21,747 bases of DNA from a virus, in the IMG/VR virus record IMGVR_UViG_3300021375_000189, positions 1 through 21,747 of that record; one strand, 5' to 3'. Each line of letters starts with the position of its first letter. Within the stretch, counting starts at the first letter, position 1. Both the position numbers and the translations under genes were made by a program. Below are positions 7,880 to 21,747 of the stretch, in pieces. The notes under the pieces are model-generated. The model made no database searches and was not told the DNA's origin. It saw only the letters and a program-made list of their open reading frames with translations.

Positions 7880-9736
7880 ATGGCCGCCGTCGTTGTTACT
7901 GCTGAAAACCTTCGGGTCGAAGATTGCGAAGCCGCTACCGGCTTCGGTAACATCGGTGGCGGTCAGGGTGGTGCCGTTGAAGCTCCGTTCGCGTACCAGG
8001 GGTCACTGCTTTACAACCGTAAGGTAACCTCTGCTACGGGAGCGGGCTTCGACTACACCTACACCACCGATGGCGGAACCGCCATCGACATGACCGCCAC
8101 TGACCGTAAGGTTTGGATGGTCAAGTGCATGGTCTCTGACTACGGGGGACTTGACGCCACCGACGGCGTACTTGTCCGCATCGGAAGCTCGTCTGGAAAC
8201 TACTACGCCTACATCTTGGCTGGCAGTGACTCTCCAGCGACGAACTTCTCGGCCTACCGGGACATTGGCGGGCTGCTGGTCGTCCCCGTAGACCCCAACG
8301 AGAACACCGCCTACAACGATACTGGTAAGGATGCGGGAAGCCCCACGCTGACCAGTATCAACTACTTTGGCTACGTCTGCGCCTTCTCGAACTCGACTGC
8401 TAAGAACGAGAACTGTGGCCTAGACGCCATCGACGTAGGCTCCGGACTGTACCTAGTGGGAGGCGATGGCGCCACTGCCGACGCCACCTATCAAGACTTC
8501 GCGGACTTTGACGGCAACACAGTAGGCAACCGATTTGGTTACGCTCGTAACGCCGACGGGGGAGGTCTTCTCGGCTTGGGCACCTGGGAGATTGGCGCCA
8601 ACGCCAGCGGCAGCGCCATCTGTGAGTTCACCGACAACGAGGCGGTCATCACTTGGCTCGACCACCTCGCGGGGGTCGGTTTCAACGCAACCAAAGTGGA
8701 CTTGAGCACAGCGGGCACCGTAATCACCGACGGTTCTCTACAGATTGGCGCCGGAGACAGCACGAACGTGGACTCCCGCCCTGACTACCTCGTGGTCGGG
8801 TCCACCGGCACCCTAGCCCTCTCGGCCACGCTTCGTAACTTCCGCAACATCTCCCTGACTACAGGCGTCACGTTTACCGGGGACATCCAGGCCAAGAACT
8901 TCCAGCAGAAGGGAGCTACGATCACCGGGGCCACCATCCGGACAGACGAGGCCACTCAGGTTGCAACGCTGACTGACCCCGGATTCACGACCCTGGACTC
9001 CACAAGCTTCATCCAGTCGGGCGTCGGGCACGCTCTAGAGATCAAGACGGCGGGCACCTACAGCTTGGACGCGCTCACCTTCGACGGCTACGGAACCGAC
9101 GGCTCAAACGACGCCGCTATCTTCGTCAGCGCGTCTTCGGGTACGGTTACCCTGAACATCGTCAACGGCGGCGACACTCCCACGTTCAGGACGGCTGGAG
9201 CTACAGTTGTAATCGCCAACACCGTGACCCTCAAGGTAACCGTTCTAGACGCGGTATCGCTGGCGGCAATTCAGAGCGCTAGGGTTCTCCTGCTCGCGGG
9301 AAACACGGGTCAGGAAAACTTCCAAGAGTCTGTTAGTATTGTGGAGTCCCTTGGCACGGCTACCGTGACGCTCGCCTCGCACGGCTACTCTACCAACGAC
9401 AAGGTTCTTATCGAGGGCGTCACCGGCACCGGCCAAGAGGACATGAACGGCATCAAGGAGATCACGGGCACGACCGCCAACACGTTCACCTACTTTACCA
9501 CAATTGGGCAGGGTACAGCCACCGGAGCGCCCATCGCTACTACAGTGCTGCTGGACGGCAACACCGACGCCAGCGGAATCCTGCAAGACACCGGGTACGC
9601 ATTCCTGTCAAACCAAGAAGTATCCGGTCGTGTCCGCAAGGGCACCTCATCTCCTTATTACAAGACTTCGGGTCTTACGGGCACAATCGTCTCGTCAGGC
9701 TACGACGTCACTTCCCTCCTTATCTCAGATGAATAG
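7880..9736 (+). CDS. Virion structural protein with HG-type beta domain
   Basis: A 618-residue beta-rich protein. The N-terminal half is rich in glycine and aspartate with regular short beta strands. A middle stretch, roughly residues 280-400, looks like a repetitive beta-solenoid (runs such as GTLALSATLRNFRNISLTTG). The C-terminal 170 residues contain a module often seen in marine phage virion proteins: ATVTLASHGYSTNDKVLIEG, then NGIKEITGTTANTFTYF, then DGNTDASGILQDTGY and a VSGRVRKGTSSPYYK motif near the end. These are remembered resemblances; the role in the particle is unclear. The ATG at 7880 comes 8 bases after the previous stop, with a TATAAT ending only two bases before it and no Shine-Dalgarno. 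The 3' end overlaps the next start by 8 bases, so the genes are probably co-transcribed. Confidence 0.6.
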   Translation: MAAVVVTAENLRVEDCEAATGFGNIGGGQGGAVEAPFAYQGSLLYNRKVTSATGAGFDYTYTTDGGTAIDMTATDRKVWMVKCMVSDYGGLDATDGVLVRIGSSSGNYYAYILAGSDSPATNFSAYRDIGGLLVVPVDPNENTAYNDTGKDAGSPTLTSINYFGYVCAFSNSTAKNENCGLDAIDVGSGLYLVGGDGATADATYQDFADFDGNTVGNRFGYARNADGGGLLGLGTWEIGANASGSAICEFTDNEAVITWLDHLAGVGFNATKVDLSTAGTVITDGSLQIGAGDSTNVDSRPDYLVVGSTGTLALSATLRNFRNISLTTGVTFTGDIQAKNFQQKGATITGATIRTDEATQVATLTDPGFTTLDSTSFIQSGVGHALEIKTAGTYSLDALTFDGYGTDGSNDAAIFVSASSGTVTLNIVNGGDTPTFRTAGATVVIANTVTLKVTVLDAVSLAAIQSARVLLLAGNTGQENFQESVSIVESLGTATVTLASHGYSTNDKVLIEGVTGTGQEDMNGIKEITGTTANTFTYFTTIGQGTATGAPIATTVLLDGNTDASGILQDTGYAFLSNQEVSGRVRKGTSSPYYKTSGLTGTIVSSGYDVTSLLISDE

Positions 9737-9932
9737 TGAAATCGCCGACCGCAACCGTAAAGCCATTATCCAAGGTCTCGAAGAGGTCAACGGTCGCATC
9801 AATGACCTGACCGCCCAGCTTGGTCGCATCAACGGACTTGTCTCTCAGCTTCAGCACGAGATCGTGCTACTGAAGCAGCAGAAGATGGACGACCTCGTCA
9901 AGAAGTTCGGCTCTGGTCCCACCGCCAGCTAG
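9729..9932 (+). CDS. Small coiled-coil protein, 67 residues
   Basis: The ATG lies inside the last codons of the preceding virion gene (overlap of 8 bases), which supports translational coupling. The product is almost wholly helical: after NSEIADRNRKAIIQGLEEVN comes a heptad pattern through INDLTAQLGRINGLVSQL and HEIVLLKQQKMDDLV, ending in a short flexible tail. This suggests a two- or three-stranded coiled coil. It sits among virion genes and could be a trimerisation or chaperone-like partner of a neighbouring fibre or neck protein, or a small virion component. I do not recognise a family. It is too short for a tail tape measure. Confidence 0.6.
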   Translation: MNSEIADRNRKAIIQGLEEVNGRINDLTAQLGRINGLVSQLQHEIVLLKQQKMDDLVKKFGSGPTAS

Positions 9933-9943
9933 GCTGATACCTC

Positions 9944-11644
9944 GTGGCGATCACGATTGACTACTCGGACAGCGCCACCCCTCAGTACGTTATCAACGTA
10001 CCGAAGGCGGATATGCTGTTAGTCCAAACGCTGCCGACGGAGATTCGGCAGTTGAATTTGGACACGTTCCGTCAGGCGCTCAACGACCTGATGGACGACC
10101 CCGAGGGTATGCCGTATCCCACGAATCACTTCCACACCCCGCCGCTCTCCATTTCAGGGGTGACGCTGGCGCGGGTTGTGGAGATCCTCGACCCCTACGT
10201 CGTTCAGTTCGAGGACGCCCAGTACAACGTGAACATCGTTGGCGGCAACTCGAACATCTCCGACAAGACGCTCAAGAACCAAGTCGGCGTCAACACGGCA
10301 AACAGTGCTGGACTCCAGGACCCGTTCGCCCTCCAAGCGGGCGCTTACCTCGGAGAGGTCACCATCGACGGCGGCTCTGCTAACACGGGGACCACCTTCC
10401 CGGTGGGCACCAGAGCCTTCCCAGTAAACAACCTTGCTGATGCCAAGGCGATTGCTGACGACCGAGGACTGGCGAACCTGCACATCGTGGGAGACTTCAC
10501 GGTGCAGGACGTGGACATCTCCGGCGATTACATCTTGGTGGGGGACAGCTACCACAGCGGAAAGGTCACTATCCTAGAGAGCGCCGACGTTACGCATATT
10601 GAGATCCGCAACCTGACGGTCGAGGGCAACCTCGACGGCACATCATTGCTCCGCGAGTGCTCGGTCGAGACTGTTGTGGACTTCTGCGGCACGATGATCG
10701 ACTGCGGGCTGGTCGGCCCTATCACCCTGCAAGGGAACATGATGGGCCTTACGGCCTCTGAGTTCATCAACTGCTACTCGCAGGTTGCCGGGGGAGGTCC
10801 GGGCCTTGTACCGTACATCGACCTTGGTGGCGATGAGGATTGCGACCTAGTTGTCCGGGGCTACAACGGTGGGCTCGGCATCCGTAACAACACGCGCCAG
10901 ACGCTCGCAGCCTCCTTGGACTTCACCTCTGGCCGGTTGCTGGTAGATAACGACATCACCCACGGGGACATCACCGTTCGGGGTTCGTGCGAGATTGAAG
11001 ACAACTCGGCGGGCAGCACCACGCTTACTGACAAGACGCTTGAGGCTCTCACCGCTGGCTACGTCTGGGACGAGATTCTGACCGGCGCCTCGCACAACCT
11101 GCCCAGCAGCGCGGGCCGCCGCCTCCGGCAGGCCGGGGCACTGGTCGCTGCGGAGGGTCTAGCAGGCGCCGGGAACACCACTACAGTCATCAACACGGAC
11201 TTGACCTCCGCGGTTGACGAGTTCTACGACGACCACACCTTCGTGTTCACAAGCGGCGATCTGGCAGGGCAAGCTCGCGTCATCACCGGCTACAACGGCA
11301 CTACTAAGCAGGCAACCTTCGACGAGCCTTGGACGAGTGCTCCGGCGGAGGATGACGAGTTCATCGTCTTCGCGGACCACGAATTGACTCGCGACCAGAT
11401 CGTTGAGGCCATGCTCTCCAAGATCATGGCGGACGGCGCATCTGTCGAGGACACCCTGATCCGGGTCCGCCGCCACATGACCAACAAGCTGATCACCGAC
11501 CCGGTGACCGGCGTGGCCTCGCTCTACGCGGACGACGGCCTCACGGTTGACGAGACCTCTCAGATGTACGAGGACGCCGCCGGGACGCAGACCTACCAAG
11601 GCGAGGGCGCCGAGCGCCGCGAGGGCTTCGAGGACACTCCCTGA
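9944..11644 (+). CDS. Virion protein with beta-helix-like centre
   Basis: A 566-residue protein starting at GTG 9944, 11 bases after the previous stop; no in-frame ATG fits the conserved beginning. The first 120 residues (LPTEIRQLNLDTFRQALNDL, DDPEGMPYPTNHFH, ISGVTLARVVEILDPYVVQF, YNVNIVGGNSNISD, NSAGL) resemble a virion protein family that I recall from many marine and environmental phages. From about residue 160 (NNLADAKAIADDRGLANLHI) to 360 there is a repeating strand pattern with short hydrophobic runs, consistent with a right-handed beta-helix. The C-terminus has a FTSGDLAGQARVITGYNG module, then a mixed helical tail ending in charged residues. Probably part of the tail or neck; no enzymatic residues are recognised. 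It overlaps the next gene by one base (TGATG). Confidence 0.6.
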   Translation: MAITIDYSDSATPQYVINVPKADMLLVQTLPTEIRQLNLDTFRQALNDLMDDPEGMPYPTNHFHTPPLSISGVTLARVVEILDPYVVQFEDAQYNVNIVGGNSNISDKTLKNQVGVNTANSAGLQDPFALQAGAYLGEVTIDGGSANTGTTFPVGTRAFPVNNLADAKAIADDRGLANLHIVGDFTVQDVDISGDYILVGDSYHSGKVTILESADVTHIEIRNLTVEGNLDGTSLLRECSVETVVDFCGTMIDCGLVGPITLQGNMMGLTASEFINCYSQVAGGGPGLVPYIDLGGDEDCDLVVRGYNGGLGIRNNTRQTLAASLDFTSGRLLVDNDITHGDITVRGSCEIEDNSAGSTTLTDKTLEALTAGYVWDEILTGASHNLPSSAGRRLRQAGALVAAEGLAGAGNTTTVINTDLTSAVDEFYDDHTFVFTSGDLAGQARVITGYNGTTKQATFDEPWTSAPAEDDEFIVFADHELTRDQIVEAMLSKIMADGASVEDTLIRVRRHMTNKLITDPVTGVASLYADDGLTVDETSQMYEDAAGTQTYQGEGAERREGFEDTP

Positions 11645-11904
11645 TGACGTTGGTCATGCGAGGACTGGGCCGCAGCCCCGGAGGAGGACAGGTAATCGTT
11701 GGCGAGGTCGTCAGCGCGGGCCTGGATGTAAGCATCTCCACCGCCGTGCTGTCTGCGGCTATCGCACCTCCTACTTACCAAGCGAGCATCGACCCCGGCG
11801 TGCTCACCGCATCCCTTTCCAGCACTACGCTCGCCGCTGTTACCCTGCAAACCGGGTACACCGCCGCCATCAGCCCTACCACCCTTACCGCAGAACTCGA
11901 CTGA
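11644..11904 (+). CDS. Small virion-region protein, 86 residues
   Basis: The ATG at 11644 overlaps the TGA of the preceding virion gene. After a short start with RGLGRSPGGG, the rest is a threonine-, serine- and alanine-rich chain of short strands (VSISTAVLSAAIAPPTY, LTASLSSTTLAAVTLQT, AISPTTLTAELD) with three roughly 18-20-residue pseudo-repeats ending in a Thr/Ser-X-Leu unit. Similar short, Ala/Ser/Thr-rich proteins occur beside tail genes in other phages, but I do not recognise a named family. Role unknown; by position it belongs to the virion operon. A purine-rich AGGA lies about ten bases before the start, weak for a ribosome site. Confidence 0.5.
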   Translation: MTLVMRGLGRSPGGGQVIVGEVVSAGLDVSISTAVLSAAIAPPTYQASIDPGVLTASLSSTTLAAVTLQTGYTAAISPTTLTAELD

Positions 11905-11910
11905 CCCGCC

Positions 11911-12267
11911 ATGGCTAACGACGCACTTCTACCGGCCAACCTCGACATCTCAAGAAAGCGTGGCGACACGTTTATGTTCACCATCGTTTTCAACGAGGGA
12001 GGGTCGCCCAAAGACTTCACCGGGTACAGCTTCAAGCTGGCGGTGAGCAGCGAGAGCAAGCCCTCGGATACCGCGAAACAGCTCTTTCAGATCACGGACT
12101 CGATTACGGCGGACGCTAGCGGGAACGTCAACATCCTGATCAACGCGGTGGAGGCGGACCAGCCGCCCAAGACCTATTACTACGAGCTTCAGGGCACGGA
12201 CGGCTCCGGGCTGATCCGTACTCTTTCCGCTGGAAAGTGGATCGTGGTGCAGGACATCGTGAAATAA
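11911..12267 (+). CDS. BppU-N-like small virion protein, 118 residues
   Basis: The chain begins LDISRKRGDTFMFTIVF and continues SPKDFTGYSFKLAV, then ITADASGNVNILI and KTYYYELQGTDGSG, ending TLSAGKWIVVQDIV. This R-G-D-T ... D-x-T-G ... Y-x-Y-x-L-x-G-x-D-G pattern is that of short immunoglobulin-like beta-sandwich proteins related to the N-terminal domain of baseplate upper proteins (BppU), common as last or near-last gene of phage structural operons. It may attach a fibre or decorate the tail. The start has no Shine-Dalgarno (gctt-free, CTGACCCGCC upstream) and lies 6 bases after the previous stop. A 49-base gap with a promoter-like element follows, so this is likely the last gene of the structural operon. 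Confidence 0.6.
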   Translation: MANDALLPANLDISRKRGDTFMFTIVFNEGGSPKDFTGYSFKLAVSSESKPSDTAKQLFQITDSITADASGNVNILINAVEADQPPKTYYYELQGTDGSGLIRTLSAGKWIVVQDIVK

Positions 12268-12294
12268 GACCTACTTTTCTGGTCCCAAACTGGG

Positions 12295-12316
12295 CGGCTG
12301 CCCTTATCATAGGGGT
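12295..12316 (+). promoter_or_regulatory. Promoter-like element directly before an ATG
   Basis: CGGCTGCCCT (12295-12304) is followed by TATCAT (12305-12310), then AGGGGT and the ATG at 12317. A -10 box six bases before the start codon predicts a transcript that begins at or next to the ATG (leaderless). No clear -35 hexamer. Nearly the same arrangement stands before 14322 and 19723. Confidence 0.55.
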
Positions 12317-12703
12317 ATGACCGAGACCAACCCGACCACCCAAGAACTCCAGATCATCATCGACAAGGTGAGGGGAGAGGCCACCCGCCAGGGCTACGCC
12401 GACGGCGCATACGAGGCGCTCATGGCGCTTTTCCGAGCCCTCGACGTCCCTTCAATCCACATCTCTAAGCCCTCCCTGTGGGCCACGCCCTTCGGCAGAG
12501 GCCGAGATGTCCGGGAGTACACGGACTGTAACGGTGCCGATACCTTGGACGAGATGAAGCAGATCCTAGCTACGGCATTCGGCAACTACAAGGGCCTTAC
12601 AGTGGAAGAGATCTTCGAGCGTGCCCTCCTCTCCGAGGACACGGTTCTAGAAATGCCGCAGTCGCCGCTGGACAAGAAAGCATTGGAGGGGACCTGTGAG
12701 TGA
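12317..12703 (+). CDS. Unknown phage protein, 128 residues
   Basis: A soluble mixed helical protein with no signal peptide or membrane segment. The first 45 residues are helical (TQELQIIIDKVRGEATRQGY, then GAYEALMALFRALDV), followed by a possibly loop-rich stretch with a FGRGRDVREY segment and two more helices (TLDEMKQILATAFGNY and VEEIFERALLSED). I do not recognise a family. It opens the replication/control side of the window after the structural operon and has a -10-like box six bases before its ATG and no Shine-Dalgarno. Its end overlaps the GTG of the next gene by 8 bases, so both are probably translated from one message; together they may be early or middle genes. Confidence 0.55.
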   Translation: MTETNPTTQELQIIIDKVRGEATRQGYADGAYEALMALFRALDVPSIHISKPSLWATPFGRGRDVREYTDCNGADTLDEMKQILATAFGNYKGLTVEEIFERALLSEDTVLEMPQSPLDKKALEGTCE

Positions 12704-13181
12704 GCCTGACCGCCGACCGCACATCGGACCGGAGACGACGGAAACCTATTGGATGGGCAGGGTTACGTCAGCCATCGAGTCGATCAAGAACTCTAGCATG
12801 GTAATGTTCGTATCCAGCTACGTCGCCTCCAGCGCCGTGGAGGAGGAGTACCCCGACGGGGTCAACCCCGACACAGGCGAACAGATCGAAACGATGGAGC
12901 GGCTTCACCTCATCCTAGAGAAGGAGCAGGCCGCCTTCGACGAGTACATCACAGTGCTAGACTCTTGGGCCACTGGGGACGCGAGCTTCCTCAAGGCGGG
13001 CAAGCTGGCTACCATGCTTGCTGAGGCTAACTACCTGTCACTGTGTCAGATACCGGAAACCGACGAGGACCTCATCTACGCCAGGGAGTGCGCGTTTGAG
13101 TACGCAAAGATTGTAAAAGCAATATACGCCATGTACCTGAAGACCCGTAAATGGGGCAAGCGTGACGAGAATCGAGACTAG
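12696..13181 (+). CDS. Unknown phage protein, 161 residues
   Basis: Starts at GTG 12696, inside the end of the upstream gene, behind a strong Shine-Dalgarno GGAGGG (12685-12690) five bases away; this decides the start. The product is mostly helical and acidic with a basic C-terminal tail (YLKTRKWGKRDENRD). Segments include a helix with MGRVTSAIESIKNSSMVMF, a connecting loop with YPDGVNPDTGEQI, then long helices (MERLHLILEKEQAAFDEYI, LKAGKLATMLAEANYLSLC, YARECAFEYAKIVKAIYAMY). No catalytic motif is visible and no family recognised. It is the last gene before a strong terminator, so it closes a two-gene unit with the 128-residue protein. Confidence 0.55.
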   Translation: MSEPDRRPHIGPETTETYWMGRVTSAIESIKNSSMVMFVSSYVASSAVEEEYPDGVNPDTGEQIETMERLHLILEKEQAAFDEYITVLDSWATGDASFLKAGKLATMLAEANYLSLCQIPETDEDLIYARECAFEYAKIVKAIYAMYLKTRKWGKRDENRD

Positions 13182-13217
13182 TACACCAGTGGGATGGCCC
13201 TGCTGAGTGGGTTGGTG

Positions 13218-13250
13218 ACCCCGAATACCGAAAGGTATTCGGGGTCTTTT
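13218..13250 (+). terminator. Strong intrinsic terminator
   Basis: ACCCCGAATACC (13218-13229) and GGTATTCGGGGT (13234-13245) form a perfect 12-bp stem closed by a GAAA loop and followed by CTTTT. It separates the 12317-13181 gene pair from the sigma-like gene, which has its own promoter. The T run is short, but stem stability makes this the clearest terminator in the window. Confidence 0.85.
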
Positions 13251-13262
13251 CTAAGGTTGTGC

Positions 13263-13290
13263 TTGTAATCTGCCGATCTGCTGATATAAT
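13263..13290 (+). promoter_or_regulatory. Extended -10 promoter of the sigma-like gene
   Basis: TTGTAA (13263-13268), a 16-base spacer and TATAAT (13285-13290) preceded by TGA give a good sigma-70-type extended -10 promoter. Seven bases separate the box from the ATG at 13298, so the message should begin within a base of the start codon. It lies right after the terminator at 13218-13250. Confidence 0.65.
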
Positions 13291-13297
13291 GACCCCC

Positions 13298-13783
13298 ATG
13301 TACTGCCAATACACCAAAAGCACCAGCAAGCAGATCGTCCGCATCATCGAGTCCTGGGCCTCTCTACAGTGGAAGGTCCTCGGCCACCACTTCACCCGAG
13401 CAGACCTGATTCAGGAGGGGCACATGGTCATGGACAAGATTAAGAAGAAGTACCCCGGAAGGGGAGAGGACCACCTCCTCTCCACGCTGGCACGCTCGCT
13501 TCAGAACAAGTCGAGAGACCTCGCCGCCAAGCCTGACAGGCTCCCCGCAGTGTCCGATCTGTCCCGCGATGACAGCAAGCTCCCCGAAGCCCAGTGCGAG
13601 GATCCGTGCCCGACTTTCGATTACCCCGACTGGCTCCAGAAGGTTATTGACTTCGCGGAGCGAGCAGACCCGCGCCAGATGTCGGCGATCTACGGCCCCG
13701 GTGGCAACCGCTACCTCGCCGCTAAGTGTGACCTTCCTGCCGACTTCCCGGTCAAGGAGATGGTTCTCCGAGCAATCGGCTGA
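13298..13783 (+). CDS. Small sigma-70 region-2-like protein
   Basis: A 161-residue protein. Residues 32-75 (FTRADLIQEGHMVM, KKKYPGRGEDHLLSTLA, SLQNKSRDLA) follow the layout of sigma-70 region 2: the exact D-L-I-Q-E-G core at 36-41, a following helix, a short loop with Y-P-G-R-G where sigma factors have F-D-P-x-x-G, then a helix that in sigma factors contacts the -10 element. Region 4 is not evident; the C-terminal 80 residues (DYPDWLQKVIDFAERADPRQ onward) are unlike a normal region 4. It may be a divergent phage sigma factor or a transcription modulator that copies only region 2. Starts at ATG 13298; an upstream GTG at 13259 and ATG at 13289 are in frame but lie before or within the -10 box. 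It shares TGATG with the next gene. Confidence 0.5.
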   Translation: MYCQYTKSTSKQIVRIIESWASLQWKVLGHHFTRADLIQEGHMVMDKIKKKYPGRGEDHLLSTLARSLQNKSRDLAAKPDRLPAVSDLSRDDSKLPEAQCEDPCPTFDYPDWLQKVIDFAERADPRQMSAIYGPGGNRYLAAKCDLPADFPVKEMVLRAIG

Positions 13784-14325
13784 TGGAGGTACAGCAAGAG
13801 CTTGAGAGCCTAGGTAGGGTGCGCCAGCTTAAAGGCGAGCCTAGGGACCTGTATCTTTGCCGGATCGTCAGGGCGGCATCGCTGACGGGTGGGCTTCCCG
13901 CGGACTCTCTGTCCCCGAGAGCATACGCTTGGCTTCGCCACGCCCAGGCCCGGCTTCAGTCTGGAAACTATCCTCTCGACTTCGACGATCCCAACATCGA
14001 CGTATCGGTGAGCGACCAACTGTTCGACCTTCTGGAGGCCGAGGATAGCATCGCCAAGGAGAAGGCGGCAAGCCGAAACACCTCGCTGCGTAAGCCTACT
14101 AAAGAGGCTAGGTCAGGGGATTACATGAGGATAGCCCAATATATCCTACTGTACCCCGGAGCTTCCCTAGAGGCTACGTCCGCATCACTGGCCTCCACGG
14201 GGTGGATAGTCTCAAGGAAGAAGGTGGAGAGAGTTCAGGACGAGCTTCGCCGGGCTATGCTGGCCCTAAAAGAATCGGGATTTACGGTTCACGGTCCGGA
14301 CGGTTCCCGTATCATAGGAATATGA
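13783..14325 (+). CDS. Unknown protein, 180 residues, C-terminal DNA-binding-like part
   Basis: The ATG overlaps the TGA of the sigma-like gene, and its own TGA overlaps the ATG of the clamp gene, so it is locked in an operon with both. Residues 1-75 are helical with basic patches; a charged helical linker (LFDLLEAEDSIAKEKAASRN) follows; residues 105-165 (MRIAQYILLYPGASLEATSA, LASTGWIVSRKKVERVQDEL, RRAMLALKE) read like a helix-turn-helix or winged helix with a final FTVHGPDG beta hairpin. A role in replication or transcription is plausible from position (between a sigma-like protein and a sliding clamp) but not shown. I know no family for it. Confidence 0.5.
   Translation: MEVQQELESLGRVRQLKGEPRDLYLCRIVRAASLTGGLPADSLSPRAYAWLRHAQARLQSGNYPLDFDDPNIDVSVSDQLFDLLEAEDSIAKEKAASRNTSLRKPTKEARSGDYMRIAQYILLYPGASLEATSASLASTGWIVSRKKVERVQDELRRAMLALKESGFTVHGPDGSRIIGI
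14301..14315 (+). promoter_or_regulatory. Promoter-like element before the clamp gene
   Basis: CGGTTCCCG (14301-14309) and TATCAT (14310-14315), then AGGAAT and the ATG at 14322. It matches the elements at 12295 and 19702 in sequence and in its six-base distance to the start. A weak -35 candidate, TTCACG (14288-14293), lies 16 bases upstream. It sits inside the coding end of the preceding gene. Confidence 0.55.
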
Positions 14326-15392
14326 GGTTCATCGACTACGTCCGGATACTAGCCCCCTATACCGCCTCCGCAAGCTACACCCTTCCCGAGCTTGCCACGA
14401 TCTGCTTCGAAGGTAAGCACGTTTACGCCAGCGACGGGATCTCGTCCCTTAGCCTCGAGGCGGTCGAGACGGTTAGGGGTCTGTGCGTCAAGGCTGGTCC
14501 TGTCCTCAATTGGCTCAACGCCGTGGGCGACGAGCAGCCCTTCACCGTTGGACTGATGGACGGTAACCTCAAGGTGCAGTCGCGGGTCCATGGTCGTCTG
14601 TCCAGCGCCACCTTCCCGATCTCTCCCGTCGGCGGCTACCGACTCAAAGTCGAGACGTCGATGACCGGCGTCGCGTCGGCGGCTACTCTGGAAGACTCTA
14701 CGCAGATGGCCGACGCGCTGGCCTACGTCCTCAAGCGCAGCGGCACCGACTCAACCTTCAAGTGGGCGTCAGGGGTCACCTTGGCCTTCGAGGCGGGGCA
14801 GATGCGGGCGTTGATGACCGACAACATCACCATGGCTGTCGGAGGGTGCGACCTTGAGGTCCGCAACCCGTTTACCTGCATGATTACGCACAGCGCCGCG
14901 CAGCGCCTACAGGCTCTCTGCGCCAACTACGCTGGCGAGCTACGGGCGGGCCTCTACGAGGGCAAGCTCTTCGTCCAGGTAAACGACGCCATCTTCTCCA
15001 CCGTGATCGTCGAGGACGCGGATGCGGTGGATAACTTCTACGGCCAGATTGAGCCCTACTCCGAGATGGATACGTTCGACCCCGGAGTCGAGTTCATCGA
15101 GGCGGTGCGCCGCCACGGACAGTTCGCCGGTAGGGACGGGGCTGCTACGCGGATCAAGGTTAAGGGCGCTGAGGCCACGCTTATCACCAACACCGAGTCG
15201 GGTCGAACAAAGGACCGCGTGGCGATTTTTGGGGCAGGGGAGCAGGAGGTTGAGATCTGCACCGGAGCCTCGGTGCTGTCCCGGATGCTTACCGACGGGG
15301 CTTCGTTCAACCTTACCGAGGACGCTATCGTGACCCGAGACCTGAGGGGCAACATGGCGCTCCTGTGCGCTTGGGACGAGGAGGGAGCCTGA
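14322..15392 (+). CDS. Beta-type DNA sliding clamp-like protein
   Basis: A 356-residue protein, close to the usual 366 of bacterial beta clamps. It shows three similar successive parts of about 110-120 residues. The first has the typical layout of the clamp fold: a helix, then LPELATICFEGKHVYASDGISSLSLEA (broken: LPELATICFEG, VYASDG), which matches the beta pattern of a hydrophobic strand followed by a-x-D. Further parts have a strand LTLAFEAGQMRALMTDN and a final ATRIKVKGAEATLITN. Sliding clamps encircle DNA and tether the polymerase. Function is supported by the next gene (DNA polymerase, overlapping by one base) and by a clamp-loader-like ATPase at 19723. The call comes from fold pattern and context; sequence identity to DnaN is low, so another ring-shaped or beta-rich protein cannot be excluded. 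Confidence 0.55.
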   Translation: MRFIDYVRILAPYTASASYTLPELATICFEGKHVYASDGISSLSLEAVETVRGLCVKAGPVLNWLNAVGDEQPFTVGLMDGNLKVQSRVHGRLSSATFPISPVGGYRLKVETSMTGVASAATLEDSTQMADALAYVLKRSGTDSTFKWASGVTLAFEAGQMRALMTDNITMAVGGCDLEVRNPFTCMITHSAAQRLQALCANYAGELRAGLYEGKLFVQVNDAIFSTVIVEDADAVDNFYGQIEPYSEMDTFDPGVEFIEAVRRHGQFAGRDGAATRIKVKGAEATLITNTESGRTKDRVAIFGAGEQEVEICTGASVLSRMLTDGASFNLTEDAIVTRDLRGNMALLCAWDEEGA

Positions 15393-18091
15393 TGTCTAAG
15401 GGAGGATTTGTGACCCGCAAGGGCTCCAAGAAGGGTGCCCGCGTCAGCAGGGCCGCGCTGTCCCAAGAGGTCAAGATGAACATGGCGAAGAGCATGGGCC
15501 TCGCAGCGGTTGAGGACATGAACCCGGACGCCAAGAATCCGAACCTCCAGCCCGTGCTGGTGGACAACCCGGACATCTACGTCATCCTCGACCGACCGGA
15601 GATCATCGCGGACGAGACCGGGGACGCCGCCCGTGGGGCAGGTCCGGACGTCGTGCGCTCGATCTGCCACCGTCACGGCATCCGGGCCTGCATCGACTAC
15701 ACGGTGCGGACGCTTACCCCTAAGGACCGGGAGCCTGAGGGCTACGAGCTTGAGGCTTTCCGCCCCGAGATCGAGAAGTCCATCGACGAGTCCGGGGCCA
15801 CGGTCGTGGTCTTGGCTGGCGCCGTGGCTATCCGGTGGGGCATGGGCAAGTCGTCGCCCAAGGGCAACCTGATCGAGGCCGCGCGAGGCAGATTCTGGCC
15901 CGGCAAAGTCAACGGGCGAGAAGTCATCTTCATGGCGGCGGCCAGCCCGAAGTGGATCAGCATCGACCTCGCGGAGGCTAACGCCAAGAAGCGTTCGCCC
16001 AAGTCGGCCCTGCCCTGGGGAGTCACCGAGCGAACCAAGGCGCTGGGCCGTGACTTCCGGCGAGCCACCATGCTCGCACGAAGGCACGCTCAGGCGTCCC
16101 CGAGGAAGCCTCTGGACGCTCGGGATCTGCTGGATGAGGTCGAGGTCCTGACTGAGCCCGCGTCGATCCTGACCGCTCTCAGGGCCATTAGAAGCCAAGC
16201 CCCCGAGCGGCTGGCTTTCGACCTCGAAACCACCGCCCTGCGCCCCTACGGGGCGGGTGCCCGGATCAGCACGTTCGCTCTCTCCATCGAGGGCCGGACC
16301 GTGAGCTTCCCCTGGATGCACGCCGAGGTAGGTTTCTCCTCCAAGGACAGGCACGAGATCGGGCACGAGATCAAGGCCCTACTGACCGAGTGCCCGCTCG
16401 TGATCGCCCACAACGCGGTCTTCGAGTGTGAGTGGACGGGTAACCACTTCGGCCTAGATTGGCTACAGTCGATCAACATCGACTGCACGATGAACCGAGC
16501 CTACATCCTCGACGAGCGCCGGGGCGGGCTGTCACTTGACCTGACGTTCTTCGAGGCTTCAGGCGTCGGGCTCAAGGCCCTCTCTCCTGACGTTGATGTG
16601 CGCTTCGTCGAGGTGTCTCCCCTGAAGCCGCTGCTCCGGTACGGCGGCCTAGATACTGCGGCAACCCTGCGGCTCTGGGAGTCCCAAGAGCGCCGCCTAC
16701 GGCAGCGAGACCTGCAAGACGCCGCCGAGCTACAGCGCCGCCGACTGATCCCCGCGGCCATCTGCCAGCTTCAGGGCTTCAACATCGACCAAGTCGGGGT
16801 TCGCCGCCAGAAGTTCGAGGCTGAGGGGTCGCTCGAGATCATCCACCTCGAGGTCAGCAAGCACCCGCTGGCTATCGCCTACGCTCAGAACAACGGAGCG
16901 TTCAACCCCGGTTCCGACGCCCAGCTTGTACACATCTTGGAGTCCCTGGGCCGAGAGGAATACAAGGTCGAGCAGCGGGACGGCTCCATCAAGAACTCGG
17001 TGGACCGCGAGGTTCTACAGCAGATCGTTGCCGCAGGTGGGCAGGGCGCTAGTCTGTGCGAGCAGATCCTAGAGTACCGGGACATCGCCAAGCGACTGTC
17101 TACCTTCGTGGCGCCCTACGACGCCTCCAGCGAGGGCTCGATTATCTGGCCCGACGGGAAGGTCCACGGCCAGTTTAACGTGGCGTTCACGGCCTCCGGT
17201 CGCTGGTCCTCCAATGGGCCGAACCTCCAGAATCTCCCGGCCCGTACCGAGGGTGGCAAGAAGGTTCGAGGACTGTTCACGCCGCCTCCGGGCCACGTTG
17301 TGGTCGCCTCGGACTACGCATCCCTAGAAGCGCGAGTGATCGCAATGTGCTCCCAAGACGAGGTCTGGGTACGCATGGTCAAGGAGGGCTACGACGCTCA
17401 CGGAGAGTGGGCAGAGATCGCCGCCCGCAAGTCCCCTCACGCTTTCCGATCCAAGATCGGTGCCGACGATTGGGACTCGGCGACCAAGTCGCAGCGCAAG
17501 GAGTACCGCGCGATCATCAAGAACGCACTGGTCTTCCCCGCATTCTTCGGCGCTGGAGCGTTCTCCATCGCCCGCAACCTGAACATGGACCAGAAGGATT
17601 GCGATGCCATCTTCGAGCAGTTCTGGGACACCTTCGCAGGGGTCAAGGCGTGGCAGGAGAACCTCATCCACCAGTACAAGGAGCAGGGCTACACCTCCTG
17701 CCTGACCGGGCGCCGTCGCTACGGGCCGCTCAAGACGCTCTCCATGGTCCTGAACACCCCGGTCCAGGGAACGGCTGCCGACCTCATGAGCGAGGCTCTG
17801 GCGAACCTCTGCGCCTTGGCTAACGACACCAATCGCCCCTACCTGCGCCCTTACATGACCATCCACGACGAGGCGGTTTTCTGCGTCCCCGAGGAGCACC
17901 TCGACTCCGCTGTCATGGACATCTCCAAGACGATGGGTAAGCCTTGGGGCGAGTTTCAGAACGTGCCTCTCCAGATCGAGACCGAGGTTGGTCCCTCGTT
18001 CGGCGACCTCGAACTGTTCTCAATCGTGGACTGCCCCGCCTACGGGGACGCCCCGGTCCATAAGAAAGTTTACTGGAAGTCTGATGCTTGA
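15392..18091 (+). CDS. Family A DNA polymerase with 3'-5' exonuclease and UDG-like N-terminus
   Basis: An 899-residue replicative polymerase; the start ATG overlaps the clamp stop and is preceded by a good GGAGGGA, so 15392 is the start. Residues about 60-190 resemble the uracil-DNA-glycosylase superfamily fold in degenerate form (ILDRPEIIADETGDAARG, then YTVRTLTPKDREPEG, VVVLAGAVAIRWGMG, and ASPKW where HPS is usual). Exonuclease motifs: FDLETT near 276 (Exo I), HNAVFE near 339 (Exo II, Glu where Asp is usual), YGGLD near 416 (Exo III). Polymerase motifs: A at SDYASLEAR near 639, B at KNALVFPAFFGAG near 709, C at HDEAV near 824. The FFG instead of YG and a Phe at the position matching E. coli 762 (counted back from FG) are notable. 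Pol A calls are firm; the UDG-like part is tentative. Confidence 0.93.
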   Translation: MSKGGFVTRKGSKKGARVSRAALSQEVKMNMAKSMGLAAVEDMNPDAKNPNLQPVLVDNPDIYVILDRPEIIADETGDAARGAGPDVVRSICHRHGIRACIDYTVRTLTPKDREPEGYELEAFRPEIEKSIDESGATVVVLAGAVAIRWGMGKSSPKGNLIEAARGRFWPGKVNGREVIFMAAASPKWISIDLAEANAKKRSPKSALPWGVTERTKALGRDFRRATMLARRHAQASPRKPLDARDLLDEVEVLTEPASILTALRAIRSQAPERLAFDLETTALRPYGAGARISTFALSIEGRTVSFPWMHAEVGFSSKDRHEIGHEIKALLTECPLVIAHNAVFECEWTGNHFGLDWLQSINIDCTMNRAYILDERRGGLSLDLTFFEASGVGLKALSPDVDVRFVEVSPLKPLLRYGGLDTAATLRLWESQERRLRQRDLQDAAELQRRRLIPAAICQLQGFNIDQVGVRRQKFEAEGSLEIIHLEVSKHPLAIAYAQNNGAFNPGSDAQLVHILESLGREEYKVEQRDGSIKNSVDREVLQQIVAAGGQGASLCEQILEYRDIAKRLSTFVAPYDASSEGSIIWPDGKVHGQFNVAFTASGRWSSNGPNLQNLPARTEGGKKVRGLFTPPPGHVVVASDYASLEARVIAMCSQDEVWVRMVKEGYDAHGEWAEIAARKSPHAFRSKIGADDWDSATKSQRKEYRAIIKNALVFPAFFGAGAFSIARNLNMDQKDCDAIFEQFWDTFAGVKAWQENLIHQYKEQGYTSCLTGRRRYGPLKTLSMVLNTPVQGTAADLMSEALANLCALANDTNRPYLRPYMTIHDEAVFCVPEEHLDSAVMDISKTMGKPWGEFQNVPLQIETEVGPSFGDLELFSIVDCPAYGDAPVHKKVYWKSDA

Positions 18092-18185
18092 TAAGTTTCT
18101 TGCTAGCGATGGGTTCCTGTACTTAGGCATCGCGACCACACTGTGGTTGCGCTGGAGATATGTGGAGCGCGACACCCCGTGCTGA
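18084..18185 (+). CDS. Tiny membrane protein, 33 residues
   Basis: ATG at 18084 overlaps the last codons of the polymerase gene, with GGAAG a few bases before it. The product is MLDKFLASDG, then one predicted membrane segment (FLYLGIATTLWLRW), then a charged tail RYVERDTPC. The overlap, ribosome site and membrane segment make it a plausible real gene despite its size. Its role is unknown; phage mini-proteins of this form can be lysis or membrane modulators, but nothing here shows it. A repeat region begins immediately after its stop. Confidence 0.4.
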   Translation: MLDKFLASDGFLYLGIATTLWLRWRYVERDTPC

Positions 18186-18265
18186 TCCCCCGGCTTTCCG
18201 ATCCCCAGTAAAAATAGGGGCATATGCCGCTCCCCCGGCTTTCCGACTTTCCATAAAAATAGGGG
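18186..18265 (+). repeat. Tandem 35-base direct repeats, period 45
   Basis: Two copies start at 18186 and 18231. Each begins TCCCCCGGCTTTCCGA (identical in both), has a seven-base variable middle, and ends TAAAAATAGGGG (identical in both). The last six bases of copy 2 (TAGGGG) pair with CCCCTA at 18271-18276 across an AGAAG loop. In copy 1 an inner CCCC (18203-18206) can pair with its GGGG. The block lies between two very small membrane-protein genes and may be an operator, iteron-like site, or paired RNA hairpins. Confidence 0.8.
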
Positions 18266-18283
18266 AGAAGCCCCTACATCCAG

Positions 18284-18496
18284 ATGATCGACAACATTTA
18301 CCGACCCTCGCCGCCGATTGGAAATCGACCTTCAATTGCTCTGTTCTTTTTGAAGTCCCTACGCGCCGCCCTGCTTCTGATCACCACTTTGCTCTTGCTG
18401 CCATTCTTGGCGCTGGTACTCTTCCTAGTGGTGTGCTGCGCCTACGCCGATGATGCCATCGAGGGGAAAATGGAAAACCCTCAAGATGATGGTTGA
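18284..18496 (+). CDS. Small hydrophobic membrane protein, 70 residues
   Basis: About 17 polar residues (MIDNIYRPSPPIGNRPS) precede a long hydrophobic stretch, with IALFFL, a short KSLRA break, then ALLLITTLLLLPFLALVLF and LVVCCAYA, and an acidic tail DDAIEGKMENPQDDG. That fits one long or two short membrane segments, with a polar C-terminus. Such a product could be a holin-like or spanin-related lysis protein, but no lysin is visible in the window, so this stays a guess. The ATG follows the 18186-18265 repeats; no clear Shine-Dalgarno. The stop overlaps the -35 box of the next promoter. Part of its coding DNA (18316-18350) is similar to the non-coding DNA at 21541-21575. Confidence 0.45.
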   Translation: MIDNIYRPSPPIGNRPSIALFFLKSLRAALLLITTLLLLPFLALVLFLVVCCAYADDAIEGKMENPQDDG

Positions 18497-18521
18497 CTTC
18501 GCCCGATAGGCGTGATAAGGT
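18493..18521 (+). promoter_or_regulatory. Sigma-70-type promoter with start codon next to it
   Basis: TTGACT (18493-18498), exactly 17 bases, then TAAGGT (18516-18521) with a TGA before it (extended -10). Seven bases (AATCCCC) separate the box from the ATG at 18529, and there is no Shine-Dalgarno, so a leaderless message is expected. Confidence 0.6.
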
Positions 18522-18528
18522 AATCCCC

Positions 18529-19053
18529 ATGAACATCTTCGCCACCAGCAAGGACCCCAAGATCGCCGCGTTCGACCACTGTGACAAGCACGCAACTAAA
18601 ATGCTGCTCGAAACAGCCCAGCTTCTCTGCACCGCCCACCACCTTGAGGGCGAGGCGAGCGACATCCCGAACATCTACCGGGTCACCCACAAGAATCACC
18701 CGAGCGCCGTCTGGGTGCGCTCCTCCCGCGCCAACTACCTCTGGGCCTACGACCTCTTCGTCGCCCTGTGCTCCGAGTTCCGGGTCCGCTTCGGTAAGAT
18801 CCACCTCACGGACGACAAGCTCCGCGTCAGCCTGATGCGCGTGCCGCGCAACATCACCGACCGGGACCTGACGCCCCCGCCCGCGTGCTGCCCCGAGGAG
18901 TTCCACGTTCACGCCGAAGGCGAGTGGCCCACCGAGACCTACAAGCTGTACCTCTCTCGCGGCAAGGACTGGATCACCTACGACTCCTGGCGCCGCCGCA
19001 CCGGCCCGCCCGCTTGGTACGGCCAACTGGAAAATAAATCCTGTGCTATTTGA
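18529..19053 (+). CDS. Conserved phage protein of unknown function
   Basis: A 174-residue protein beginning MNIFATSKDPKIAAFDHCDK, then HATKMLLETAQLLCTAHH, HPSAVWVRSSRANYLWAYD, a FGKIHLTDDKLR strand region, and a C-terminal WRRRTGPPAW. I remember a widespread phage family with this beginning (M-N-I-F ... A-A ... C-D-K-H ... K-M ... E-x-A-Q-x-L-x-T-A-H) found in cyanophages and other tailed phages; it has no agreed function, although some database labels call it a DNA glycosylase-like protein. Conserved His, Cys and Trp residues suggest an enzyme or metal site, but that is inference. A TTG at 18493 is in frame but coincides with the -35 box, so the ATG at 18529 is preferred. The next gene, a lipoprotein, follows after about 76 bases. 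Confidence 0.65.
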   Translation: MNIFATSKDPKIAAFDHCDKHATKMLLETAQLLCTAHHLEGEASDIPNIYRVTHKNHPSAVWVRSSRANYLWAYDLFVALCSEFRVRFGKIHLTDDKLRVSLMRVPRNITDRDLTPPPACCPEEFHVHAEGEWPTETYKLYLSRGKDWITYDSWRRRTGPPAWYGQLENKSCAI

Positions 19054-19129
19054 CCCGCATCCTCTGTGCTACCCGGATATTGTTTCGCGGCCTCTCAAGT
19101 CGGAGAGCGCCGCGACCGATAACAATATC

Positions 19130-19669
19130 ATGAAGCACCACAACCATGAGGCCGACGCCTCCCCCTTCACCATGCTTGCCGCCACCATCCTCCTCTTCGT
19201 AGCATTCGTTGCTATCTGCTCCGGCTGCACCAGCGGCTCTTCCTCCACCCCGGTCGAGTCTGACCCGCCGCCCTGCTACCGAGCAGACGAGCCCAACGAC
19301 TCCTTCGAAACTCCGAACGTCATCGTTCCCGAGGCGTCCCGCTTCCTGATCGAGGGTAACATCCACCACCTTGACCTCGACTGCATGGTCCTGACGGGCG
19401 AGAATGGCGTGCCCTTCGGAGAGAAGATCGTGGACATCTCGTGGGACTACGCAGCCGGGTGGGACATGGAGGTGTCCGTATCTTGGGAGCGCAGCGACGG
19501 CGTGGCGTTCCCCCTGTGGGGAGCTTGGGATCAGTGGGCGACGGGAAACCTCTCCACCACTGTGACGGTGCCCGCTGAGGCTCGCCGCCTACGCCTGAGC
19601 ATCGGCCAGCGAACGCTCAACACCCCGCCTGACGAAACCCGCTACACCATCACCGTCGAGACCTTCTGA
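19130..19669 (+). CDS. Predicted lipoprotein with PPC-like beta domain
   Basis: A 179-residue exported protein. Residues 1-14 are polar and histidine-rich, 15-30 form a hydrophobic core (MLAATILLFVAFVAIC), and Cys33 in C-S-G-C could be the lipidated residue, although a Cys at -3 is an imperfect lipobox. The typical TSGSSS linker follows. The rest (DEPNDSFETPNVIVPEASRF, then EGNIHHLDLDCMVLTG, ending TRYTITVETF) matches the pattern of the small beta-sandwich found in bacterial pre-peptidase C-terminal (PPC) domains: E-P-N-D-S-F ... G-x-I ... D-x-D. It probably sits in the cell envelope of the infected host, where phage lipoproteins can block superinfection, or it is a host-derived cargo gene; neither is shown. 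A GTG at 19043 is an alternative start but would bury the signal peptide in a long N-terminus. Confidence 0.6.
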   Translation: MKHHNHEADASPFTMLAATILLFVAFVAICSGCTSGSSSTPVESDPPPCYRADEPNDSFETPNVIVPEASRFLIEGNIHHLDLDCMVLTGENGVPFGEKIVDISWDYAAGWDMEVSVSWERSDGVAFPLWGAWDQWATGNLSTTVTVPAEARRLRLSIGQRTLNTPPDETRYTITVETF

Positions 19670-19676
19670 TAAAGAT

Positions 19677-19704
19677 CCGGGTTTCCTGTTCTAGGGAGAC
19701 CCGG
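19677..19704. other. Hairpin between lipoprotein and clamp-loader genes
   Basis: CCGGGTTTCC (19677-19686) pairs with GGGA-G-ACCCGG (19694-19704, one bulged G) across a seven-base loop. There is no T run, so termination would be weak. The 3' arm overlaps the CGGCTTCCG part of the promoter-like element at 19702, so the hairpin may also modulate it. Confidence 0.4.
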
Positions 19705-19716
19705 CTTCCGTATCAT
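19702..19716 (+). promoter_or_regulatory. Promoter-like element before the clamp-loader gene
   Basis: CGGCTTCCG (19702-19710) and TATCAT (19711-19716), then AGCTTT and the ATG at 19723. Same layout and distance as at 12295 and 14301. No Shine-Dalgarno and no strong -35 are seen. Confidence 0.55.
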
Positions 19717-19722
19717 AGCTTT

Positions 19723-20637
19723 ATGAGCCTTCTCACCAAATATCGACCGAGCAGTTGGAAGCAGGTTGCCGGGGATGTGTACTCGATCCTCGCTATCAAG
19801 AACGCTGCGGAGAAGAATGACGTCCGATCCTTCCTCGTCTGGGGACCCAGCGGCGTTGGTAAGACGACTGTGGCCCGGCTGATCGCCGACTCCCGCAACG
19901 TCGAGTCCCAAGACCTCGTCGAGTTCGACGCCGCGTCCCGTTCGGGAGTCGGCGATGTCCGCGACCTGATCGAGCTTACCCGGACCCGAGGCTTCAACGG
20001 CAAGGGCTCCCGCTGCATCATCCTCGACGAGTGTCACAGGCTCTCCGTCCAGGCGTGGGATGCACTTCTGAAGACCATTGAGGACGCCCCGGACTGGGTC
20101 ACGTTCGTCTTCTGCACGACGGCCCCCGAGAAGGTGCCCGCGACCGTGAAGACCCGCTGCGCCAGTTTCGAGTTGCCGCCGCTCGACCGGGATGAGATGG
20201 GGCGGCTGCTCCGCCATGTCTGCGACTCCGAAGGTATCCAGATCACGGGAAAGGTCGCAGCCGCACTAGTAGGCAAGGGCTACGGCTCTCCCCGCGCCAT
20301 GCTGGCCGCACTAGCTGCGCTCCCCGAGGCCGACGAGCAGTATCAACTTCAAACGCTCGACACCTTCGTCACCAAGTCCACAGAGGCCATCGAGGTCGCC
20401 AAGGCTCTGGTGTCAGGCAAGTCCGAGAAGGTCTGCCTGAAGCTCCTCTCAGCAATCGACCTGAAGAAGACCAGCGCGGAGTCTATCCGGCAGATCGTGC
20501 TCCGCTACGCCTCCGCTGCTGCCCTCAAAGGCAACGCTAAGGCGGTCAATGTGCTGGCCGCCTTCAAGAACCCGTACCCCGTGGGGGACTACCCCACGGC
20601 TCACCTGATCGTAAGCATCTCTGATGCTTGCCTCTAA
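19723..20637 (+). CDS. Clamp-loader ATPase, DnaX / gp44-like
   Basis: A 304-residue AAA+ protein. It begins SLLTKYRPSSWKQVAGD, typical of DnaX and T4 gp44-type subunits. Walker A is GPSGVGKTT (near 41-49), Walker B is CIILDECH (near 97-104), sensor 1 lies in FVFCTTAPEKVP followed by VKTRC (arginine-finger region, usual S-R-C), and sensor 2 is GSPRAML (near 187). A helical C-terminal collar domain follows. The four-cysteine zinc module present in bacterial DnaX is absent, as in phage loaders. With the clamp-like protein at 14322 it would open and load the ring using ATP. A second, smaller loader subunit (gp62-like) is not recognised here. Preceded by a -10-like box six bases from the ATG, and followed 14 bases later by the GroES-like gene. 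Confidence 0.9.
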   Translation: MSLLTKYRPSSWKQVAGDVYSILAIKNAAEKNDVRSFLVWGPSGVGKTTVARLIADSRNVESQDLVEFDAASRSGVGDVRDLIELTRTRGFNGKGSRCIILDECHRLSVQAWDALLKTIEDAPDWVTFVFCTTAPEKVPATVKTRCASFELPPLDRDEMGRLLRHVCDSEGIQITGKVAAALVGKGYGSPRAMLAALAALPEADEQYQLQTLDTFVTKSTEAIEVAKALVSGKSEKVCLKLLSAIDLKKTSAESIRQIVLRYASAAALKGNAKAVNVLAAFKNPYPVGDYPTAHLIVSISDACL

Positions 20638-20651
20638 CCCCTTCTATAGCT

Positions 20652-20966
20652 ATGAAGTTCACTAACTCCTCTATCCAGCCCTCTGCGGGCTACTACTTCG
20701 TCAAGGGCCCGTTCGTGCCCGAGCAGACCGAGGGCGGTCTGCACCTTCCCAAGATGACCGGGCCGGACGGCAAGCCCCTGCCGTCTTCCACAACTGATTC
20801 CGTCACCGCCGAGATCATCGCGGTCGGTTCCCGCCACGACGGCAAGCCGCCGGAGTGGGCAGCCGGTGACCGGGTTCTCCTCTCTATCCTACCGCACGGT
20901 ATCGAGAACGATGGGGTTGAGGTTGCGTTCATCCAACACAACAACGTGCTCGCGAGGATCTCATGA
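20652..20966 (+). CDS. GroES-like co-chaperonin
   Basis: A 104-residue protein with the layout of GroES/Cpn10: a first strand (IQPSAGYYFVKGP), a mobile-loop equivalent EQTEGGLHLP (residues 24-33, with G-G-hydrophobic, compare GGI in GroES), then TAEIIAVGSRHDGK, AAGDRVLLSILPHG, and the final VAFIQHNNVLARIS, the counterpart of the ending that carries the I-L-A-V-I motif. It is slightly longer than bacterial GroES (about 97). It would cap the host GroEL ring to fold phage proteins, as T4 gp31 does for the capsid protein; that parallel is from family knowledge. Start ATG 20652, with TATAGCT immediately before; an in-frame TTG at 20628 overlaps the previous gene and is less likely. ATGA overlap with the next gene. 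Confidence 0.85.
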   Translation: MKFTNSSIQPSAGYYFVKGPFVPEQTEGGLHLPKMTGPDGKPLPSSTTDSVTAEIIAVGSRHDGKPPEWAAGDRVLLSILPHGIENDGVEVAFIQHNNVLARIS

Positions 20967-21538
20967 TTACCGCCGAAGCTGTCAACCCCAGCACCAGCAT
21001 CAAGGATCTGGCCGAGGTCTTCGCCTCTACTGCCGTGTTTCCCGAAAAGGTGGCCTTCACCTACCTGCAAGCCGGGATCATCGCTGAACTTGGCGAGGCG
21101 CTGAATTCCGCCAAGAAGGTTATCCGAGGGGACGCGGATCTAAAGGAGTACCTCCCCAGGATCATCGACGAGTACGGCGATGTGGTCTGGTATGCGGTCA
21201 GCCTTTGCTCTTGGGCGAACGTCCTTGACGACTCCACTACGCTGTACGACTGCGAGCGCGAGGCCGACGCCTACGCTGGCTTCCTGGCTACCGGGGAGGG
21301 CCAGATCGACGATCAGTTCTTCGTCGATGGGCTTATCGAGATGTCGAAAGACCTGATTAGCGCAACTGAAGAGTGGAACGGCTCGCAGACCCTTCGCGTC
21401 CTCGCGGAGATGGGAGTCCACCTCACCCACTTCTACGGCAGGGATGCTGGCCTTTCGATTGTTTCGCGGAAGGTTTCCGAGAAGCTAGCGGCTCGCAAGG
21501 AGCGCGGCGTGCTCAAAGGCGACGGCGATAACCGATGA
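20963..21538 (+). CDS. MazG-like nucleotide pyrophosphohydrolase
   Basis: A 191-residue protein. The N-terminal 90 residues show the all-alpha NTP pyrophosphatase core: E42-x-x-E45 in AELGEAL and E70-x-x-D73 in DEYGDVVWY, the metal-binding E-x-x-E / E-x-x-D pair. The C-terminal end (VSRKVSEKLAARKERG and GDGDNR) matches the tail of many phage MazG-like proteins, where a K-L-x-x-R motif precedes G-D-G-D-N-R. These enzymes hydrolyse (d)NTPs to monophosphates and pyrophosphate, cleaning or rebalancing nucleotide pools during infection. It overlaps the GroES-like stop by four bases (ATGA) and has GAGG five bases upstream, so it is co-translated. After its TGA the same frame stays open for 37 codons to TAG at 21650, without clear evidence for readthrough. 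Confidence 0.85.
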   Translation: MITAEAVNPSTSIKDLAEVFASTAVFPEKVAFTYLQAGIIAELGEALNSAKKVIRGDADLKEYLPRIIDEYGDVVWYAVSLCSWANVLDDSTTLYDCEREADAYAGFLATGEGQIDDQFFVDGLIEMSKDLISATEEWNGSQTLRVLAEMGVHLTHFYGRDAGLSIVSRKVSEKLAARKERGVLKGDGDNR

Positions 21539-21542
21539 TGGA

Positions 21543-21619
21543 TTGAAAATCCGAACCTGAAAGTTCTGTTCTTTTCGGCCCGTAACGCGGCTCCCCGGAT
21601 TTTCAAGTCCGAGAACAGA
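21543..21619 (+). ncRNA. Candidate structured RNA with interlocked inverted repeats
   Basis: Between mazG and the next gene. TTGAAAATCCG (21543-21553) is perfectly complementary to CGGATTTTCAA (21596-21606), 11 bp. TCTGTTCT (21565-21572), inside that loop, is perfectly complementary to AGAACAGA (21612-21619), outside it. The order A-B-A'-B' is that of a pseudoknot, or of two mutually exclusive folds. A strong hairpin terminator follows eight bases later. No known RNA family is recognised. It could be an untranslated 3' element of the mazG message, a small RNA, or a protein-binding site. Confidence 0.4.
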
Positions 21620-21626
21620 CCTCCTC

Positions 21627-21665
21627 AAATGGCCGCCCCTGGTTTTTCCTAGGGGCGGCCATTTT
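21627..21665 (+). terminator. Strong hairpin terminator after mazG
   Basis: AAATGGCCGCCCCT (21627-21640) pairs with AGGGGCGGCCATTT (21651-21664) in a perfect 14-bp stem with a ten-base loop, ending in TTTT. A short A run on the other arm would let it also work on the opposite strand. It closes the 19723-21538 operon. Confidence 0.8.
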
Positions 21666-21707
21666 GGTACTAGGAATATTCCTCATCGAAAGTTCTTGGG
21701 AAAGTTG

Positions 21708-21736
21708 TTGTGTTTCTCTCCGCGATGAGCGATAAC
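21708..21736 (+). promoter_or_regulatory. Possible promoter of the next gene at the window edge
   Basis: TTGTGT (21708-21713), 17 bases, then GATAAC (21731-21736), and seven bases later an ATG at 21744. Spacing matches the leaderless promoters seen elsewhere in the window, but the hexamers are imperfect. An ATG at 21725 (peptide MSDNSTH to the window end) is an alternative gene start. The window ends before either can be judged. Confidence 0.25.
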
Positions 21737-21747
21737 TCTACCCATGA

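Follow-up and report, generated by a model that had tools for sequence, protein, structure and literature searches.

Leaderless phage messages are known from lambda cI and Thermus phage phiYS40. Predictions exist for mycobacteriophage Corndog/Cluster O (PMC4351075) and for Adephagia gene 90 (PMC11373665). In Deinococcus-Thermus and Actinobacteria, leaderless genes carry a TANNNT box ending 6-7 bp before the ATG and no Shine-Dalgarno (SD) sequence, and SD-led genes occur alongside them (PMC12340547, PMC3160421). The leaderless -10 motif of D. radiodurans, which was tested experimentally, has the same 6-7 bp spacing (PMC12340547). In the TA-led class described by Zheng et al., the signal begins about 12 bp upstream of the start codon; high-GC hosts that have leaderless genes often carry TANNNT at such a distance (PMC3160421). 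T4 late transcription uses a small divergent sigma factor, gp55, together with an 8-bp TATA box and the sliding clamp as activator (PMC2988020).

The window analyzed here, 21,747 bases long, comprises an entire IMG/VR virus record. Its genes are coded on the + strand and run from portal, head and scaffold proteins and tail fibres to replication genes; GroES-like and MazG-like proteins are also encoded. On the replication side, the order is sliding clamp (14322), family A DNA polymerase (15392), phrog_624 protein (18529) and clamp loader (19723). Genes are named below by their start positions. The features that bear on the argument are as follows.

12302..12316, + strand: class I promoter-like element CCTTATCATAGGGGT, abutting the ATG at 12317, with TATCATAG at 12305-12312
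12317..12703, + strand: gene with no significant family match and a class I box in front; the cistron at 12696, with its own SD, is next
13217..13246, + strand: intrinsic terminator upstream of gene 13298, 13-bp stem and TTTTCT tail
13263..13297, + strand: predicted class II promoter TTGTAA-N16-TATAAT-N7 before the ATG at 13298, with a TG-extended -10 and 10/12 consensus positions
13298..13783, + strand: probable phage sigma-like protein, with a sigma-70 region 2 signature
13783..14325, + strand: gene between the sigma-like gene and the clamp, no family match; the class I box of 14322 lies in its 3' end
14307..14321, + strand: class I element CCGTATCATAGGAAT, before the ATG at 14322 and within the 3' end of gene 13783
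14322..15392, + strand: sliding clamp (DNA polymerase processivity factor), phrog_947 E=2.7e-11
15392..18091, + strand: family A DNA polymerase, phrog_17 E=1.9e-110; SD-led (GGAGGGA, anti-SD -12.3 kcal/mol)
18493..18528, + strand: predicted class II promoter TTGACT-N17-TAAGGT-N7 before the ATG at 18529, with a TG-extended -10; read directly
18529..19053, + strand: phrog_624 protein; homologs align from residue 1, confirming the start
19708..19722, + strand: class I element CCGTATCATAGCTTT, before the ATG at 19723
19723..20637, + strand: clamp loader, phrog_5846 E=7e-56; the start is backed by alignment with four phage homologs

Only remote cultured relatives of the replication genes were found: the nearest are Edwardsiella phage ZHS, SSP002-type Vibrio phages and, in the case of the clamp loader, Pseudanabaena phage Pan1, with amino-acid identities of about 30-40%. 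When the polymerase or the clamp loader was used as a single-protein query against IMG/VR viral contigs, no close relative was found; profile scans and alignments led to distant polymerases only (26-35% identity). A polymerase-profile search of genome contigs for a hint of the host gave no match. Small lipoprotein-like and membrane ORFs lie among the replication genes (18284-18496 and 19130-19669), and the ORF at 19130-19669 has a weak, non-significant spanin match (E=0.13). The gap 3' of the polymerase gene contains two imperfect direct copies of CCCCCGGCTTTCCGA...TAAAAATAGGGG at 18185-18275.

The preliminary description of this DNA had placed -10-like hexamers before five start codons, and all five were found: TATCAT at 12305, TATAAT at 13285, TATCAT at 14310, TAAGGT at 18516 and TATCAT at 19711. 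In that order, 6, 7, 6, 7 and 6 bases separate the hexamer from the ATG. Counted from the first T, the distances are 12, 13, 12, 13 and 12 bp, which fits the leaderless TA-led criterion of about 12 bp. A TANNNT box stands 6-7 bp upstream at 5 of 21 curated gene starts, against a mean of 0.48 in dinucleotide shuffles of the upstream sequence (P=1.5e-4). The + strand has 202 ATGs; a box precedes six of them, of which five are gene starts (P=2.5e-5); no box was detected among the 260 ATGs of the minus strand. When TANNNT was counted by its distance from every candidate ATG of the long ORFs, the sole peak was at 6-7 bp (5 observed, 0.62 expected), and by this signal the window ranks first among the viral loci tested. 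No class I box was found in the structural genes (844-11911). A TATAAT located 2 bp before the ATG at 7880 (TGATATAAT, 7872-7880, formed around a stop codon) has the wrong spacing and was not taken as a further case. Thus, the five boxes are real and not a product of chance. The same description had treated them as one family. The five boxes stood, but as two promoter classes, and for one of these the reader may be a phage factor and not the host sigma.

The three TATCAT boxes (class I) are copies of one 8-mer, TATCATAG, which is absent elsewhere in the window. Its three copies, each 12 bp before an ATG, compare with 0.06 expected, and in 5000 shuffles a positional 8-mer was never seen three times. 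The common layout is CC[G/T]TATCATAG-N4-ATG, and the genes it heads are the clamp, the clamp loader and gene 12317. The site at 14310 also scores as sigma-70-like (TTCACG-N16-TATCAT, 9/12), and a recognisable -35 is missing at the other two of the three sites, 12305 and 19711. Each of the three class I sites has a perfect TCATA-N4-TATGA dyad spanning the -10 box and the start codon; both class II sites lack it. The exact 5+5 bp symmetry arises from a T before and an A after the ATG in all three, and the arm centres are about one helical turn apart. The dyad may mark an operator. An exact-motif scan of IMG/VR with CCKTATCATAGNNNTATG returned 70 stretches with one match each; these were judged to be chance matches because most are in AT-rich contigs and many do not open a gene.

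The two class II sites share TGATANNNT-N-A-N-CCCC-ATG and -35-like hexamers. A sigma-70 scan of 11600-21747 gave two matches only, at the sites of 13298 and 14322, with 1.9 expected by chance; the strict scan missed the site at 18493..18528 because TAAGGT falls under the match threshold. The strong terminator upstream of gene 13298 ends 51 bp before its ATG, and thus leaves little room for a leader.

As the preliminary description had stated, the five boxed genes have no SD: their anti-SD duplex energies are at background (P 0.22-0.96). It had also divided the genes into operon-leading ones with a box and operon-internal ones with an SD. This division is weak and not established: box and SD do not exclude each other significantly (Fisher P=0.12). 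The first 4 bp of gene 14322 are shared with the gene upstream, which puts the box inside coding sequence, and by position the gene does not lead an operon. Five leading genes with an upstream gap (1942, 2941, 5952, 18284 and 19130) have no box, and many genes of the window have neither box nor SD. As for the SDs assigned to internal genes, GGAGGGA at the polymerase gene held, but at 20963 the GAGG forms only a weak duplex (background P 0.22).

Taken together, the boxes are best read as giving leaderless or nearly leaderless messages, with a probability of roughly 0.7 in our estimate. Leaderless first cistrons are inferred because the spacing equals that of D. radiodurans and the TA-led positions of Zheng et al. 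A hexamer ending 6 bp before the A would place +1 on that A, and one ending 7 bp before it would place +1 within one base. Promoter activity and leaderless translation are predicted from sequence, and the start points from box geometry. The leaderless prediction of the preliminary description is supported in part, by the spacing, the enrichment, the -35 and extended -10 elements of class II and the terminator, but not by the SD split or by related phages: the box at 6-7 bp is not enriched in related viral loci, all of which are distant (about 30% polymerase identity). The preliminary description had itself counted a lack of enrichment in related phages against its prediction. The likeness to the leaderless genes of Deinococcus-Thermus and Actinobacteria is in the box, its distance from the ATG, the lack of an SD and the SD-led genes alongside. 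Here, however, the genome is that of a phage, three of the five boxes are one identical 8-mer, and class II keeps a -35 and an extended -10. With the leaderless messages of other phages, the window would share a phage promoter with +1 at the start codon; it differs in having a repeated near-identical element on replication genes and not single SigA-like promoters or a repressor gene.

Gene 13298 stands behind a class II box. Its product reads DLIQEG...KKKY...HLLSTLARSLQNKSRDLA, which is typical of sigma region 2. In tblastn against sequenced phages nothing was detected, and a single-protein Pfam search showed no sigma; the relation surfaced weakly through NCBIfam (sigma70-ECF, TIGR02937, E=0.009) and through the family alignment. 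Among 19 family members (the product and 18 aligned relatives, many from phages that also share the polymerase and the clamp loader), TIGR02937 matches seven (best 1.9e-5, weak profile scores), Sigma70_r2 matches six and phrog_35491, which has no function in PHROGs, matches 16. When the region-2 profile was compared by hhalign, all five E. coli sigmas had lower E-values than all 13 controls and aligned at region 2, at a low absolute probability. The AlphaFold (AF2) model is helical (pLDDT 88), with region 2 confidently modelled. None of the Foldseek hits was significant; the SigE N-domain (TM 0.54-0.59) and SigA domain 2 were among them, and all had E above 1. Helices follow region 2 in the model, which suggests a possible region 4. 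From these results, the product of gene 13298 is probably a phage sigma factor, previously unnamed.

The arrangement recalls T4 in its 8-bp -10 element without a clear -35, in a small protein with probable sigma region 2 similarity and in a clamp encoded nearby. The sliding clamp and clamp loader of a T4-type system are both in the window (phrog_947 and phrog_5846). A T4-type system also has a co-activator, gp33, and a clamp-binding tail on its sigma factor. In contrast to T4, the box sequence is another one, the boxes are on replication and not virion (late) genes, and the helices after region 2 point to the possible region 4.

The sigma-like family lies upstream of the clamp and polymerase genes in the window, in the IMG/VR relative L116, in L099, L120, L104 and L118, and in others. 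In the Mardecavirus Vibrio phage SSP002, the relative gp063 precedes the genes for clamp, polymerase and clamp loader, an arrangement also seen in the window. SSP002 and IMG/VR relatives such as L116 share with the window the order sigma-like gene, clamp, polymerase (plus clamp loader in SSP002) and CGTAT-type boxes near the clamp gene. Within the 40 kb of L116, which holds the closest sigma-like relative, we found four CCGTATGNNTTG sites, with 0 for the reversed control. They precede a DnaB-like helicase gene, a gene after the sigma-like gene, the clamp gene and an operon including the clamp loader. The L116 protein called at 7947 was dropped as an apparently wrong-frame call. SSP002 has 13 forward copies of CGTATAG, eight of them intergenic (P=2.6e-6), and three reverse copies, none of them intergenic; one forward copy lies 28 nt before the clamp gene. 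A second, unrelated element, TTAGTAA/TTACTAA, is extremely frequent in the SSP002 (L205/L206) intergenic regions, with 34 and 25 copies in 4.8 kb; it may serve in partition or be bound by a regulator.

In a non-redundant set of phages carrying the sigma-like gene, CGTATR has a strand bias of 29:6, which stays at 14:2 (P=0.002) without the two phages that suggested the motif; start codons can inflate part of the CGTATG signal. In other phages CGTATR has no strand bias (18:13). With L116 set aside, CCGTAT alone is unbiased in the family, and the claim is therefore limited to the weaker CGTATR signal. The class I element (CCGTATCATAG) and the boxes of the relatives have a CGTAT core in common, and the CCGTAT link is a short motif. 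Where a box resembling class I precedes the clamp gene of a relative, the distance is 28-61 nt and an SD follows the box. Thus, leadered messages are expected there, and the leaderless spacing would be particular to this phage or its host; the polymerases are also only about 30% identical.

How the boxes are read was considered in several ways. All five may be ordinary host sigma-70 promoters in a leaderless-rich host, in which case the identity of class I would reflect duplication or preference and the product of gene 13298 would not act there as a sigma. We give this a little less than even odds. TATCAT is a good -10, the site at 14310 has a partial -35, TANNNT at such spacing is common in high-GC leaderless hosts (PMC3160421), and no phage factor is needed. 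However, class I is identical over 8 bp with a common CC upstream, unlike the variable TANNNT of host leaderless genes, the -35 is missing at 12305 and 19711, and relatives with the sigma-like gene are marked by similar CGTAT boxes. A link between class I and a phage sigma is a testable, tentative lead, less likely than not.

It is unlikely that class I sites are instead operators, with the dyad bound by a repressor of the replication genes and closeness to the start codon following from the dyad. The exact symmetry, confined to class I, speaks for this reading, but it was noticed post hoc and is partly a consequence of the ATG; no repressor was identified, class II would be left unexplained, and an operator role is compatible with a promoter doubling as operator. 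Still less probable is that the boxes are no promoters, but chance AT-rich hexamers or translation-related upstream elements, with transcripts starting further upstream. Sigma-70-like sites are indeed no commoner in this region than in shuffles; against this stand the fixed spacing, the repetition of TATCATAG, the -35 elements of class II and the shuffle statistics.

Under the leaderless reading, the boxes would be the -10 elements of promoters whose +1 falls on the A of the ATG or no more than one base from it, and the downstream cistrons (12696 and the polymerase, 15392) would be translated from the same messages by SD-led initiation. Class II (13298 and 18529) would be read by the host sigma-70-type RNA polymerase. 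Class I is one repeated phage element; tentatively, the sigma-like product of gene 13298 would read it or take part in its reading, and a host-to-phage promoter cascade might then act on the replication genes.

Leaderless phage messages have so far been documented or predicted piecemeal only, and are of a kind already known. A broader possibility, which we regard as doubtful at present, is a phage family with its own small sigma (phrog_35491 and relatives, under no such name in the libraries used) that adjoins the clamp and acts at CGTAT-type promoters to drive the replication genes; here this regulon would have turned leaderless, with promoter, possible operator and start codon fused in a 15-bp cassette. 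The probable sigma-like family beside the clamp is a candidate promoter-switch protein for Mardecavirus-like phages and many uncultured ones; the records examined annotate no such protein for them. If true, a repeated leaderless cassette on replication genes would offer a compact test of promoter choice paired with ribosome choice.
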